64,000 nucleotides of DNA from NCBI GenBank assembly GCA_030765065.1, contig CM060990.1, forward strand, positions 496,734,190-496,798,189, written 5' to 3'. The position numbers were made by a program, and so were the translations under genes. How positions within the stretch are numbered: the first letter of the stretch is position 1; each line of letters begins with the position of its first letter. The DNA comes from Deroplatys truncata. Lineage: Eukaryota; Arthropoda; Insecta; Mantodea; Mantidae. The notes beneath the pieces are model-generated. The model worked only from the letters and a program-made list of their open reading frames with translations. It was not told the origin of the DNA and ran no database searches. Below are positions 40,373 through 62,835 of this stretch, piece after piece.

Positions 40373-40802
40373 ACAGAAATAATTAAAGAATTGGTTAAAA
40401 ACAATAATGGACATTTCAACGCACCAATAAAGACTAGTACTTCAACTAATGTAAATTCTATATACCTTTATGAAGTTATAACCGAGGGAATGCTTAAGAC
40501 AATAAATGGATTGAATAATATATATTCGGCAGGTGTAGTAGACATACCAGATACACTGCCAATCAAGTTTCCAGACACCCAGTAAAAGTAATGCAATTCA
40601 GCATTTAGCTTGAATTGTTATTTATTCCACGTAAGTACAATCAATCCAAAAATTGTTGTTTAGAATGCAGTATTAGTTAAAAAGAGAGTATAGTAGTACG
40701 TTTTGAAAATTTATAAAACAGGTCGCAAACCGGATGCTTCTACCTGCCTCCATCATAATCTAGACATGCCGTACCAACGATTACACTGTGGAACAGTGAT
40801 TT

Positions 40803-40900
40803 TGGTGCCTTACAATTCTGACCTATTTCTGACTATATTTGGGCCACTGATTCCAAAAATGCTCTCAGTTTTGCCCTATCAGCTCTAGTTTTTGAGATAC
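40803..40900 (+). repeat. Inverted repeat, left arm
   Basis: Pairs with 42386-42483 in inverted orientation, 70 of 98 by hand count. Confidence 0.8.
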
Positions 40901-41089
40901 AGCTTATTCACATTATACACCAATTTAATCTTACTGGTCCGCATATACAACTATATTACTTGCACACAATTAAATAAAGAATGCATTTAGTTGGATCAAG
41001 CACATTCTTTTTCATGAAGCAACTTTCTATCAACTACCATAATTTATTTATACACTAGTTGCATTAGGTTCATTGATTTTCTTCTATCA

Positions 41090-42228
41090 GGTCGCTGAAT
41101 TCTCGTTAACATGATTTCCTCCTTGTTTTTGTCAACCAAAGGTTATGTGATGTTTTTTTCTCCAACGGTCATGCTTTCTCTAAGAGACCACTGTCTTGTC
41201 ACACCTAATGTTGATCTTTAGCTCTAGAATTCCATAGGCATATAACGCATGGGTATTTGGTGTACCCACCTTGTCCTAGAAGAAAGTTCATCATCTTTAT
41301 GTCGACACAGATAACCCATTGGTGATCACGGTATGAGATCTTCTGTAGAACTGTAGCTATTGTAGCTTGATTTTCATGCATAGTAATTGAGTGACCAATT
41401 GGTATTGACCTGTATTTGTTCCTATTATGCAAAAGAACACATTTTAAGCTGCGTTTGGAGCTATCGATAAGTAACTGCCACTCTGTTGGTGTGTATTTTC
41501 TTATACCCAGTTTCATTAACAGTCTTTCAACATTGTTGCAAAAAACAAATTGGTTTTCTGTTGTGAAGAACGGTAGGAAATCCTGCTCTCTTTTGCGATA
41601 GACTGTCGCCTTTGTTCCCGGTAACAGACAGTGTTTCTCTGCCAGCCTAGAAGCCAACAATTCTGACAACTGCTTTGGAAGACTAAGATCTCTAAAGAGG
41701 CCATTCAGTTCTGCTTGATTAAAACCAGACACAACTGATGAAGGTCGTGCGAAATCAGTCATTTTGCTCAGCATAGCTTTCAGCTGATTAATCCACTTCT
41801 TCTGATGACTCTGGAAGACTGATAAATGCTGGAACAGGTATCTCCTCTGAATGTGGAACAGGACCTCTTGCAGAGCGTAGATCGGGATATTTCCACGTAT
41901 TCCAGTTTTTGCTATTGATGCCCTTTACATTTACTGAACAAATGTGGTTTATTGGTTCTCGCCATATCATTAGTTCCCCAAATTTCAAGCACTTCCGCTT
42001 CCCATTTTTCCAGTGTCTCAGATGCTCTGTGCATGTTTTACATATGATGTAAGGTGCCCAAGCCTTATCTTGGTCCCCAAGTTTTACTTTGAAATAGGCC
42101 AAATAAGCTCTTTTTACAAAATCGGTTATGGGTTTTCTTTGCTGGATGAATGTGTATTCCCCACAGATAAAACAAAACACATCAGGATTATTCACACATT
42201 TTCTTCGTGATGAAGCCACATCAGTGCC
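41090..42228 (-). pseudogene. Uncharacterised Cys-rich repeat-borne protein (CFICGEYT family), copy 1
   Basis: The first open part, 42219-41788, begins after a TTTTCATAG acceptor-like tract with no ATG, so an upstream exon is likely. It holds FCFICGEYTFIQQRKPITDF, then VKLGDQDKAWAPYIICKTC, then HLRHW. These C-x2-C pairs and His suggest a zinc-binding N-terminus. The second part, 41774-41205, reads GFNQAELNGLFRDLSLPKQL, ELLASRLAEKHCLLPGTK and YTPTEWQLLIDSSKRSLKCV. It then has HNRNKYRSIPIGHSITMHEN and FLLGQGGYTKYPCVICLWNS. A frame slip near 41780 separates the parts, and a decayed continuation reaches about 41090. I recall many near-relatives in arthropod and Hydra predictions, all uncharacterised. 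The IDSSK and CxxC-type residues might form an enzyme or binding core, but I assign no function. Confidence 0.65.
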
Positions 42229-42385
42229 TATGAAAAGGAGACATAAATGTCAGAATAGTTAAAGTACATCTGCAAACATGAATAGGCCTAGGATAAAATA
42301 AATTAGTATAATGCAAATAATATAATCAAGTTACAAATAGTGCTGTAAAACAAAGTAGTCATAAGAGCAATTTATAAAGATATCA

Positions 42386-42483
42386 GTATCTCATAAACTA
42401 GAGTTGCTAGGATGAAATGGAAGACATTTTTGGAATCAGCAGCATCAAAATACCCAGAATCATGTGGAAAATTCAAGGCACCA
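42386..42483 (-). repeat. Inverted repeat, right arm
   Basis: Inverted partner of 40803-40900, same length. Followed outward by an A/T-run and GTTCCCCAGTGTT. Confidence 0.8.
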
Positions 42484-42516
42484 TGAAAAAAAAATTTTTT
42501 TGTTCCCCAGTGTTAT

Positions 42517-43105
42517 TTAACCTGGACCCCTCCTATCCTAATCCACAAGCAAGGTAGAGCACCCAGTGGGTCTAGCCACACTCCACAAACAGCATATTTT
42601 CGGCCATGAAATAGGGGCTGTCTTAACGGCAGAGAGCAGTTTGACTTATACCAAAGGACTTGCAGTTTTCAGCGAGTATATATATGGCCGAGAAGGAGCA
42701 AAATCAATCTGTGAGAGTCATCAGTTATAATCAAACTAAAAATCTGCTGCTACTTTCAAAGAGAAACAAACATCTGTGTTAGCATATAATAATATAATTA
42801 CAAATTTTGATGAGAAAATCAGGTGCTAAAGTTACAGAAAAGAAAAAAAAGAAGAATTCAACAAAATGCGTAATTCTGTAATTTGGGTGCAAAAATTACA
42901 GAACAAAAATACGAAATAGCGACAGCACCTTTAACAAATTACAAAGTATTACAAAATTCAAACAAATAACACTTATCTCGGAAATGGCTCATGCCAGAAA
43001 GAAAGGCGTAACTTGGTCATTTATTTCTTAGAATAAATAAATCATTGGAACAAAATGAAAATGAAATGAAAGTAATGATTATCATCACATTAAACTTTAA
43101 TGAGA
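42517..43105. other. No recognised gene
   Basis: A GC-richer block (about 42520-42720) resembles neither coding nor a known repeat. It may belong to the inverted-repeat element's 5-prime flank. AT-rich beyond. Confidence 0.4.
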
Positions 43106-43109
43106 CAAT

Positions 43110-44015
43110 AAAACATGTCAAGAGTTTTGCTTCTTTATGTTTACTATCCTATTTGTTTCTTTAAATTACCACTATTACACTTACTACACTGGTTGTCCAG
43201 AAACTTATGGTCGGAAGTGTATAATAATTATAAAAAATTCAGTGAGTACATAATTAGACCACTTGTTCATCTGTGTAGTGCATCCATTGCTAGCAGAACT
43301 TTCCCTGATATTAAAAACATCTAAGGTTGTATCTGTACAAAAAAGGGAATAAGTCTTGAGGCATCAAACTACCGTCCAATTTCCATTCCTGCCATATTCT
43401 CAAAGATACTGGAAAACATAATATATAGGAGACTTCTTTTGTTTATTGAAAAAAATTATATAATTACTAACTCACAGCATGGATTTCAACACAAAAAATA
43501 AACAGAGACTGCAATATACTCTTTATTAAACAGTGTTATAACTGCCTTAGATAACAAAGATAAATCCATTGGCATATTCTTAGATTTAAGTAAAGCTTTA
43601 GATACTGTTAACAATCAAATTTTGCTAATGAAGTTATTTGACTTTGGCATAAGAGTTGAATCTTACCTCACAAACTGGAAAAAATAATGGATATTACATA
43701 TGCAAACCCTAACACTAAAACACTTTTGGCAGTTAGATCCAACTTGATATAACATACGGAAGCCCTTAAGGGTCTATTCTAGGCCCATTTCTATTTATTT
43801 TGTATATAAATGACCTACCAAATAACATTCAAGCTCATAACATCTTACTATTTGCAGATGATACTGATTTACTAACAACAGAAAACAGTAATGAAATGTT
43901 AAACAATTCATTAAGCCAGGCTAGTAAAGATTTGGTAACATGGATAGCTAAAGACAACCTGGTTTTAAACACTGATAAAGCAGTTTGTCTTAAATTTCAT
44001 ATTACTGATAATGCA

Positions 44016-44046
<31 letters not shown>

Positions 44047-44345
44047 TAATAATAATAATAATAATAATATATCTGAAGTAAAATTAAATAATATTAATCT
44101 CATACAAAAATGAAACAAACTTTTTAGGCTTTTGAATACAGAATAATTTGAAATGAAAATCTCATATTAAATACCTTCTAAGCGAATTAAGTAGGAATAT
44201 ATACACCTTAAGAATTGGCATGTCAGCCTTTGTGTACTTTTAATAGCATATTATGCACATACAACTCAATAATGAAATATAGAATAATGTTTTGGGGAAA
44301 TTTGCCAGAAGTTACAGAAATATTTATTAAACAAAAATAAGCCAT
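43110..44345 (+). mobile_element. CR1/Jockey-like LINE, RT part
   Basis: Plus-strand reading: IRPLVHLCSASIASRTFPDI, ASNYRPISIPAIFSKILEN, TNSQHGFQHKK, GIFLDLSKALDTVNNQILL, then MYINDLPNNIQAHNILLFAD, DTDLLTTENSNE and NLVLNTDKAVCLKFH. The active site LLFADDTDL is intact. Later pieces FLGFWIQ-like and IMKYRIMFWGNLPEVTEIF lead to the Tc1 insertion. Several stops and shifts lie around 43500-43790. An (AAT)n run has grown inside the gene at 44017-44070. Confidence 0.75.
44017..44070 (+). repeat. AAT microsatellite inside LINE RT
   Basis: AATAATAATAATAATAATAA followed by an A-run and a second AAT run. Confidence 0.9.
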
Positions 44346-44355
44346 TTGCGTTATA

Positions 44356-45441
44356 CACTACGTGATCAAAAGTATTCGGACACCTGGCTGAAAATGACAT
44401 ACAAGTTCATGGCACCCTCCATCGGTAATGCTGGAAGTCAATATGGTGTTGGCCCACCCTTAGCCTTGATGACAGCATTCACTCTCTCAGGCATACTTTC
44501 AATCAGGTGCTGGAAGGTTTCTTGGGGAATGGCAGCCCATTCTTCACAGAGTGCGGAACTGAGGCAAGGTATCGAAGTAGGTCGGTGAGGCCTGGCACAC
44601 AAAGTCGGCATTCCAAAACATCCCAAAGGTGTTCTTTAGGATTCAAGTCAGGACTCTGTGCAGGCCAGTCCATTACAGGGATGTTATTGTCGTGTAACCA
44701 CTCCACCACAGCCCGTGAGTATGAACAGGTGTTCGATCATGTTGAAAGATGCAATCGCCATCCCCGAATTGCTCTTCAACAGTGGGAAGCAAGAAGGTGC
44801 TTAAAATATCAATGTAGGTCTGTGATCGTGCCATGCAAAAAAACAAGGGGTGCAAGCCCCCTCCAGGAAAAACACGACCACACCATAACACCACCACCTC
44901 CGAATTTCACTGTTGGCACTACATACGCTGGCAGATGACGTTCACTGGGCATTCGCCATACCCACTCCCTGCCATCGGATCGCCACATTGTGTACCGTGA
45001 TTTGTCACTCCACACAACGTTTTGCCACTGTTCAATCGTGTAATGTTGATGCTCCTTACACCAAGCAAGGCGTCGTTTGGCATTTTCCTGCATGATGTGT
45101 GGCTTATGAGCAGCCGCTCGACCATGAAATCCAAGGTTTCTCACCTCACGCCTAACTGCCATAGTACTTGGAGTGAATCCTGATAGTGTGGAATTCCTGT
45201 GTGATGGTCTGGATAGATGTCCGCCTATTACTCTTTACGACCCTCTTCAAATGTCGGCGGTCTCTGTCAGTCAACAGACGAGGTTGGCTGTACGCTTTTG
45301 TGCTGTACATGTCCCTTCATGTTTCCACTTCACTATCACATCAGAAACAGTGGACCTAGGGATGTTTAGGAGTGTGGAAATCTCGCGTACAGACTTCTGA
45401 CACAAGTGACACCCAATCACCTGACCACGTTCGAAGTCCAT
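44356..45441 (-). mobile_element. Tc1 transposon, one end present, gene broken
   Basis: The left end begins CACTACGTGATCAAAAGTAT, the typical Tc1 terminal style, after TA at 44354-44355. The matching right end was not found. Sequence beyond the transposase start passes within a few dozen bases into the family Z LINE, so the right end is missing or very decayed. Inserted in the preceding LINE RT. Confidence 0.82.
44380..45441 (-). pseudogene. Tc1 transposase (DDE type)
   Basis: Starts MDFERGQVIGCHLCQKSVRE with a helix-turn-helix (ISTLLNIPRSTVSDVIVKW). After a break, it continues GFTPSTMAVRREVRNLGFHG, NVVWSDKSRYTMWRSDG (first Asp), VKFGGGGVMVWSCFSW, CIFQHDRTPVH (second Asp), and WPAQSPDLNPKEHLWD (third acidic residue, Glu of KEH). 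It ends VNAVIKAKGGPTPY plus further residues. All three acidic positions survive. Three or more frame changes or stops separate the blocks. Confidence 0.85.
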
Positions 45442-59473: not shown

Positions 59474-60685
59474 TGAGCTGTGAGGAAAATAATGCACTGG
59501 GATTCGTGTACCTGGGTTGAGTTTGATGATGGCCTCCTACTGTGGTGTCATATGCCCAGTGTTGCGGCCTTATTCTTAGTAGGCATTGACTTAGCACATA
59601 TGCAGTTTTATTGTATTTTGCATAACTTTAAGGTTTAGAAATATTTATTTATTACCAGTTGTCATGAATACTATAGATTATGTTGCACACAATGACCAAA
59701 TAATGAAAACTAGTATTACCACTAATTGCTACAGACCTGTCCTTCAATCTGAGAACATTACTAGTAAAAATATGCCTTTTTAGGATTTAAGCTTTTTCTG
59801 GCAATAATTTAAAATAGTAGTAGAAGATCATCATTAAGAAGGGGTATTCCATGGATGTTAAAACAGGCACATGTGTAATGTTTCTACCTGAAAGCTGAGT
59901 GGTGAGGTAAAAAAGGGCAACAAACCTCCATGCAGTTGTGTATTGAGCAATAGGCCATACAAACTTGGTATTATTCATTTCACTGAAGCAGCTTTTTTAC
60001 TGTTCAAAAATATAAACAATAGTTATTCCTATGCCAAGTTTGCAGACATGCTGCTTGTTAATGGGGAAGCTAATGGACATGTAACTGTAGCAGAACAATT
60101 GCACTTGGCAGATATCATTCCTATCAGTTGAAATTTCAGTCTATTTATACAGTCTGCGATGAAAATCCTGTCTTTAAAGTTTGAACATTTTTGGTGTATT
60201 TTTAACATGCTAATATCAAATTCGTGACTAGAAAGTTCCCACTATGTACCATTTTCCTTAATTTTCTTATAATATCACCTTTTTGCAATTATTTATACTA
60301 TAATACTTTAACGCATTCTGTAGTTTTAGTACCTAAGATATGAAAACTAAATTTATTCAAAATATTTTAAGTTGCTTATAGTAAAAACTGAGCACACTGG
60401 ATATTTCTTATCTGGGGTGAAACTACATAAGGAAGCTAGAATGAGATTACATGTACCCTTGCCATTATGTTTATTTGTGGGAGATAGGTATGTCGGCCCT
60501 ATTTGGTGAGAAACACATCTTATCTTTGTAAGCAAGAACAAACCCCATCTGGTTCCTCTCATACTTCATTAATCTGAGTTTTATCTGGAAATGAAATAAG
60601 TTTGAAGCTTTATTTTGGTATAGAATGTTGTGAGTTTTCATTTCAGTAAGAAAGTATTTACCATGTTGCATTGAAAATGTATAGA
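59474..60685. other. AT-rich stretch without recognised content
   Basis: Short open stretches only (for example 59943-60131 plus, 60353-60562 minus) with no family match. Confidence 0.4.
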
Positions 60686-60689
60686 TAAT

Positions 60690-61780
60690 CCTGACCACTT
60701 TTATTATATATGTGGGAAATGCACACTGTCTAAATAGAGGCATAATATTGCAGATTTTGTGATAAAGTTGTATCTTGCCTATTTTGGAACCAAAGTAAAG
60801 CTTTGGCACCACACAAAGTATGTAGAGCATGCATTTAAGAACTTTGTCATTCTATCAACAACAAAAGACTGCTACTATCTTTTGGAATATCTACGATTTG
60901 AAGAGAGCAGTCGAACCATAGTAATGACTGCTACTTCTCTTCTTGTGATGTGAAGGGGTACAATTCTAAGAATAAAAAGCAAATCGTGTATCCAGTTGTT
61001 TGGTCAGCCATTTTACGTATGTGCCATGGGCCTGCTGTGTACCAATCTGTGAGACCAGAAAATCTTGAACAGTTTCCATCTGAGTCTGATGAAGAAGTGA
61101 GGGAAACTATAAGGAGTGACAGTAACTGTCTAACAAAATCGTCTGTTGCAGGACATGGGTGTTGTAACCAAAGGGAATTAAATGAGTTTGTGAGGGATCT
61201 TGCCCTCCCTAAGGAGTTAGCTCGAATTATGAGGTTCTAGTTTCCAAGAAAAAAATTTGCTATGCCCAGAAACATCAGACTGTTGCTATCAACAATGTGA
61301 AATAGATTTTAAATTCCTTTTTTCCAGAGATGTCCATCTTGTATATTGCAGTAATGTGAAAGAATTTGCTTAAGCTTGGACTTCCAAACTATGACCCAAG
61401 TGAATGGAGACTGTTCACTGATGCTTCCAAGTAATGTTTACGGGGTGCCCTCCTTCATAACAGAAAGGCTTTTTGGTTCAGTGCTCATTGCCTATTCATT
61501 GATCCTCAAAGAATCATATGGAAATTTGGAACTACTATTATTGCAACTGAACTACAATGAACACCACTGCAAGTTTGTGGTAAGTTTGATGTTACTATGC
61601 TGCTGGGTCAACAATCTGGTTTTATCAAATTTCCATGCTTTCTTTGTGAGTTTGCAGGGTATGAGAGTAATTTACATTTGAATGCTTACTTTGTTGATAA
61701 AGCTATTTATCTCGCACCATAGCTCAAATGCCTCGACAGGGCACCCCATTTGAGCCACCTGACATGGCAATAATATGGCA
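60690..61780 (+). pseudogene. Uncharacterised Cys-rich repeat-borne protein (CFICGEYT family), copy 2
   Basis: Plus-strand blocks match the 41-42 kb gene in order: FYYICGKCTLS, then ADFVIKLYLAYFGTKVKLWH, then ELNEFVRDLALPKELARIM, LKLGLPNYDPSEWRLFTDAS, ALLHNRKAFW, MLLGQQSGFIKFPCFLC. It is more broken than copy 1. I did not find the 98-base inverted repeats around it, so either it lost them or it belongs to a different subfamily. Confidence 0.55.
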
Positions 61781-61984
61781 GAATGTCTAATGTGATCCCA
61801 GCTCTTCTAGCAACTCTTTAAATTGCTTATGACGAAGGGACTTTTTTAATAAACTTCACGCAGTTCACAACAATGGACATAACAGTACTTAAGGTAATTG
61901 ATTTTGCATATAAAGCCTCCCTATGAATGATGCAGTGTATAGACAAAACATCAGAGGGCATATCCATATTCCTTAAATATGTCC

Positions 61985-62835
61985 TTAGTCTCCCAAACTC
62001 TTTTCACCCCCGCTCATTGATGGGCCCCCATCGGTCGCAACACTAACTAGTTTAGCCCAAGGAAGTTCTAATCTGCAACAAACAGCAAGAACAGTATTGA
62101 AAATATCTTCACCACAAGTATGTGTTTTAAGAGAAACTATGTTTTGAAGTTCTTCAATAACATTGAATTCAGTATCAACCCCCCTCAAAAATACAGCCAG
62201 TTGAGCTTCATCAGTTATGTCCATGCTGTCATCCAATGCCAGAGAAAAATAAATTAAGGATTTTATTTTCACCTGTAGCTGTCACTCTATATCACATCTC
62301 AATTTTCCACACGTCTTGTCGCGGTATTTCAAAATAGGCTCACTGATTTGAAAGTATCTATTACATTGGGACACACTTCCTCAGTGGCTATATTTAAACA
62401 ATCTGTAATGAACTCCCCTTCCTGAAAAGACTTCATGTTCTTTGCAATGTGTTCAGCAATTCTATACGATTTAACAACATTGTCAGGACGAAAGCCGTTC
62501 GAAGTTGGTGCTTTAATATATTTTAATTTCTGTATTGTTGCTTCACCTGCAAGTGAAATGATTTAATTGCAAATTAATTTACAAGTTAGCTGATATATTC
62601 ACATTTAAATTATAACAGCAAGTGCTGTTACTGATTGCTTACTTGATAAAATGTGTTTGACATAATCAGTATGATGGTAGTTTTCAAAGTGTCGTTTAAT
62701 ATTATATTGGGTACCCCACGATAAGTGATGCTTGCAAATAAGACATTTCACCATGCTGTCCTCTTTAACAACAAAATATTCTTCATCCCATTCTTTCTGG
62801 AATACGATATGTTTGGGTTGCTTGCAAGCTGCCAT
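61985..62835 (-). pseudogene. hAT transposase N-terminal half with BED finger
   Basis: MAACKQPKHIVFQKEWDEEY, then CLICKHHLSWGTQYNIKRHF, then ENYHH: a BED finger (C-x2-C, H-x4-5-H). A poorly framed linker (KAPTSNGFRPDNVVKSYRIA-like, about 62500-62300) follows. Then SLALDDSMDITDEAQLAVFL holds the catalytic Asp region, and LPWAKLVSVATDGGPSMSG the second Asp. A splice-like gap may lie between finger and linker (62600s). The gene stops at 61985, with the insertion domain and C-terminus missing. The ATG at 62835 opens the finger and is a natural start. Related to the 22.7 kb hAT but not the same family. Confidence 0.75.

Follow-up and report, generated by a model that had tools for sequence, protein, structure and literature searches.

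Chapaev3 transposons have been described as having 5'-CAC...GTG-3' ends, C(2)C, LH and H(4)H motifs and internal-deletion derivatives (PMC4079192). The same description places a TWA target-site duplication between A and T in all Chapaev3 elements examined, and gives a length of 2,289 bp and a transposase of 556 aa for the silkworm element (PMC4079192). A Chapa zinc-finger domain is attributed to Chapaev3 (PMC4411706), and the wider group, including EnSpm families with 3-bp duplications, has also been described (PMC12730594). Chapaev was one of the DNA transposons found in all species investigated in PMC6327564, and two Chapaev3 families are listed for a blowfly (PMC3630058).

We analysed a stretch of 64,000 nucleotides from the mantis Deroplatys truncata (hereafter the window) and found in it an element that matches the published description of Chapaev3 features. 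Almost certainly it belongs to the Chapaev3 group of the CMC assemblage, as a cut-and-paste DNA transposon that has lost an internal part and is nonautonomous.

Termini and inverted arms

The features of the element are collected in Table 1. The 98-nt arms match in inverted orientation, without gaps, at 70 of 98 positions (~71% complementary), which bears out an earlier note made from the window alone; in 300 dinucleotide shuffles of the region 40780-42516, the best 98-nt inverted match between the region halves was 53. The outer motif that the same note had paired was also recovered, with CACTGTGGAACA starting at 40784 on the left and CACTGGGGAACA starting at 42512 and reading inward on the right. 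The window copy thereby ends in CACTG...CAGTG, in agreement with the CAC and GTG of Chapaev3, and most tabulated copies do likewise. The bounds first proposed, 40780-42516, are exactly the A and the T just outside the TTA duplication. A minus-strand gene does lie between the arms, and its two frames (189 and 143 codons) are parts of one decayed gene. The element was found to sit within another interspersed repeat (40684-40783 and 42516-42612), which occurs at 80-87% identity in at least 40 other places.

Table 1. Features of the element in the window (positions are those of the window)
Feature	Position	Strand	Remarks
Whole element	40784-42512	- (gene strand)	1729 bp; ends set by terminal motif; internal-deletion derivative, Chapaev3-like
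Left TIR, imperfect	40784-40900	+	includes 98-nt arm 40803-40900
Right TIR, imperfect	42386-42512	-	includes 98-nt arm 42386-42483
Left target-site duplication TTA	40781-40783	.	A at 40780; identical to right one
Right target-site duplication TTA	42513-42515	.	T at 42516
Gene end and trailing sequence	40901-41122	-	present in both short and long copies
Deletion junction	41122/41123	.	~530 bp of long copies missing
189-codon frame	41205-41774	-	transposase middle: two candidate catalytic Asp (putative role) and C(2)C motif PCVIC
143-codon frame	41788-42219	-	Cys-rich N-terminal part, possibly Chapa zinc finger

Genomic copies and target sites

The genome (4.29 Gb, 818 contigs) was searched for further copies. 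A DNA search with the whole stretch as query, in which the best 40 of 420 first-look candidates were scored and gave 59 matches, found at least 34 near-full copies including that of the window, the other 33 being 88-93% identical; these copy numbers are lower bounds. When the 189-codon frame was used in a protein search, at least 150 matches were obtained with identity down to 47% (best 150 of 8155 candidates scored), and the frames of many copies were interrupted by stops. The left arm (query 40780-40910) gave 95-100% identity in all 40 scored places, the best 40 of 301 candidates. The possibility had been raised that such arms are widespread without the gene; 36 of the 40 arm places lie near listed copies of the element or gene, and 4 were left unmatched in a comparison made by eye against partial lists. 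These 4 may be free-standing arms without the gene.

We then examined the ends of the copies. From loci L001-L060, ten repeats of a place were dropped to leave 50 distinct loci. Ends were called with the terminal motif alone, allowing up to 3 mismatches; both ends were called in 45 loci, and no pair of ends was found in the other 5. An exact 3-bp duplication was present in 28 of the 45 copies (16 TAA and 12 TTA, nothing else), which is the TWA duplication of Chapaev3, and 37 of the 45 had an A before and a T after the insertion, as in Chapaev3. By size, the exact duplication was seen in 20 of 27 short-size copies and in 8 of 12 parent-size copies; L038, in fact a short copy with its right end called wrongly, is among these 12. 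TWA was found on both sides in 30 copies and agreed in 28 of them; 10,000 random pairings averaged 15.3 agreements and never exceeded 24. Among the 17 copies lacking an exact duplication, some differ by one base and others have doubtful end calls (e.g. L007, L040, L052, L055 and L056, as well as the mis-called right end of L038). Shared ends and consistent target duplications, which the earlier note had looked to a genome-wide search to supply, were thus found among the copies.

Empty sites were sought by joining the flanks over one TTA. Joined flanks were prepared for ten copies, and those of the window copy, L019, L009 and L010 were then searched. For the window copy, all 40 listed places cross the join at 80-87% identity (best 40 of 1330 candidates); for L019, whose flanks are part of another repeat, all 40 listed places cross it at 93-95% identity (best 40 of 3083 candidates). 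L009 and L010 had no row among the best 40 matches listed, all 40 of which fell on the window site, the query being shared with the window copy. Six empty sites, three each for the window copy and L019, were aligned. All carry a single TTA and lack the element; therefore, the element was inserted at both sites and duplicated TTA.

Internal deletion and the encoded protein

An alignment of 33 short and 11 long copies placed the junction at 41122/41123 in all 33 short copies, several minor gaps aside in some of them, and an extra stretch of ~530 bp in all 11 long copies. Copies were sorted by whether their match broke at the junction or ran through it, so that 33 of 33 speaks for one event and is not a frequency; outside both classes were 7 of the 50 loci and 4 of 5 in another locus set. 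Because the short copies have one junction in common, we attribute them to one deletion event. The BLAST pieces at the breakpoints overlap by one base. With up to 3 mismatches allowed, the short junction pattern was counted in 84 places and the uncut pattern in 156, with 0 for the reversed control. Long relatives measure ~2.26 kb, and the eight with exact duplications are 2151-2288 bp long.

The part missing from the window copy was read in the long copy L035. It contains the LH motif as PPLHIKLG, the H(4)H motif as LHYLHSHL and the presumed Glu in EEQGERFHQ; the part also kept in the short form has the presumed Asp residues in FID and CVD, and C(2)C as PCFIC. The deletion thus removed LH, H(4)H and the segment with the presumed catalytic Glu, and the window copy retains only C(2)C of the three motifs. 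It is nonautonomous and could move only in trans, if at all. Of 11 aligned copies, 9 have LH; L047 has lost it and reads LF, and L059 is unreadable there. H(4)H is present in 11 of 13 copies; L046 has lost it, L058 is unreadable at this point, and L052 has a stop inside the motif. C(2)C was damaged in L046 and L057. The losses in L046, L047 and L057 are as decayed copies would be expected to show. As in Chapaev3, the transposase of the long copies has C(2)C, LH and H(4)H. The 2151-2288 bp of the eight copies above, with ~560 aa estimated across broken frames, agree with the size given for the group (~2.3 kb, ~556 aa). Putative Asp and Glu residues of a DDE triad are visible in relatives.

Many of the motifs are also retained in the decayed frames of four distant copies (L061-L064, 41-59% protein identity). 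One of these, L063, belongs to a different family (41% protein identity) and has the ends ATTA-CACTAG...CTAGTG-TTAT; ends of this type were looked for in L061, L062 and L064, and none were seen. L063:1455-3761 is Chapaev3-like, with TTA flanking it on each side and long imperfect inverted ends (a 151-nt match, 69.5%). Arms of this kind may be common in the Chapaev3-like group.

A profile comparison of the protein with known transposase superfamilies had been suggested. Pfam gave nothing above its cut-offs, the Cys-rich 143-codon part matching zf-AD at E 0.1, under the cut-off, and a search of PDB chains with the two protein pieces gave no match at E up to 10. These two results account for the uncharacterised look of the protein; the placement came from the ends, the duplication and the motifs. 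Single-sequence AlphaFold2 models of the two frames had mean pLDDT values of 33.4 and 37.1, too poor for a fold search, and two viral_contigs scans found no relative. The lack of Pfam and PDB matches would suit a DNA transposon from a superfamily still undescribed, as first proposed; we give this next to no credence, as the ends, TWA duplication, A/T flanks, three motifs and size all match published Chapaev3. The locus is a real DNA transposon, as the shared ends and TWA duplications had it, but its group is the already known Chapaev3 (PMC4079192) rather than an undescribed one. What appears as a multi-copy gene for an uncharacterised Cys-rich protein is transposon-encoded and fits Chapaev3; such genes can therefore be masked as repeats rather than annotated as host genes.

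We also considered whether the short form is more than a passenger. Truncated products can act in trans as repressors, as KP of the P element does. A repressor-type Chapaev3 deletion form, in which the truncated gene was retained because its product, a putative end-binding protein, keeps the family in check in trans, would be compatible with placement in Chapaev3. The amplification of one deletion form that keeps the Cys-rich N-terminal part and the gene middle, and its junction at 84 places, point in that direction. Against this, the 33 short copies deviate from the column majority equally often at codon positions 1, 2 and 3 (457, 461 and 452; ~0.042 each), the rate outside the frames is 0.042 too, and stops occur in many frames. 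Equal decay after insertion leaves room for selection on a few source copies, and we regard a repressor role as improbable, with a slim chance of being right. Mean divergence of the short copies was 4.2%, with L048 at 12.6%. The majority sequences of the short and the long class disagree at 12 coding sites, of which 8 are third positions, and at 10 noncoding ones. These few differences are what lineages derived from a gene under selection would be expected to show.

A second copy of the gene had been reported at 60.7 kb. The fragment there (60675-61647) is a real relative, with 35-38% protein identity to the protein of the window element, but it is not a second copy of the element: it belongs to another, decayed Chapaev3-like family, and the region 60000-62600 yielded no inverted repeat of 16 nt or more. 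Other presumed transposon sequences were seen in the window. Minus-strand frames at 44500-45160 are taken to resemble a Tc1/mariner-type transposase, plus-strand sequence and a frame at 43300-44080 presumably resemble LINE reverse transcriptase, and minus-strand frames at 61985-62835 presumably resemble a hAT/ZBED-type transposase fragment.

Taken with placement in Chapaev3, the following history is proposed. A parent of ~2.26 kb would encode a DDE transposase able to excise the element at its ends and reinsert it at A-TWA-T, with duplication of the 3-bp TWA. One parental copy would have lost ~530 bp, and with them LH, H(4)H and the segment of the presumed Glu, and the resulting short form was probably multiplied by the transposase of intact relatives. 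The window copy would be one product of this multiplication, now decaying. The shared deletion, together with the empty sites, marks it as a clear example of a nonautonomous derivative; it is otherwise ordinary.

Comparison with known groups

Transib and RAG1 have been put in the same wider group (PMC12730594, PMC4411706); the two protein pieces of the window copy differ from them in having no PDB match at E up to 10. EnSpm/CACTA and the other Chapaev groups are closer. CAC...GTG ends are found there, the stretch from the second Asp to the Glu has C(2)C and H motifs, and EnSpm has 3-bp duplications (PMC12730594). On these grounds EnSpm/CACTA, Mirage or Chapaev proper, neighbours of Chapaev3 within CMC, could be proposed in its place, the C(2)C and H motifs being common across the group and EnSpm having both the ends and the duplication size (PMC12730594). 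However, all Chapaev3 elements examined in PMC4079192 have their TWA duplication set between A and T, an arrangement not seen in the accounts of the other groups that were consulted. As C(2)C, LH, H(4)H and a one-gene parent of 2.26 kb fit Chapaev3 too, we consider a neighbouring group very unlikely.

Within Chapaev3, the MITEs described are generally <600 bp (PMC4079192), whereas the window copy is 1.73 kb long and retains much of the gene. Merrow and Garfield have a first small exon (PMC4079192). With Merrow, Garfield and Conan, the Chapaev3 elements of PMC4079192, the element has in common CAC/GTG ends, a TWA site set between A and T, all three motifs, a parent of ~2.3 kb and deletion derivatives, a likeness drawn from published descriptions.
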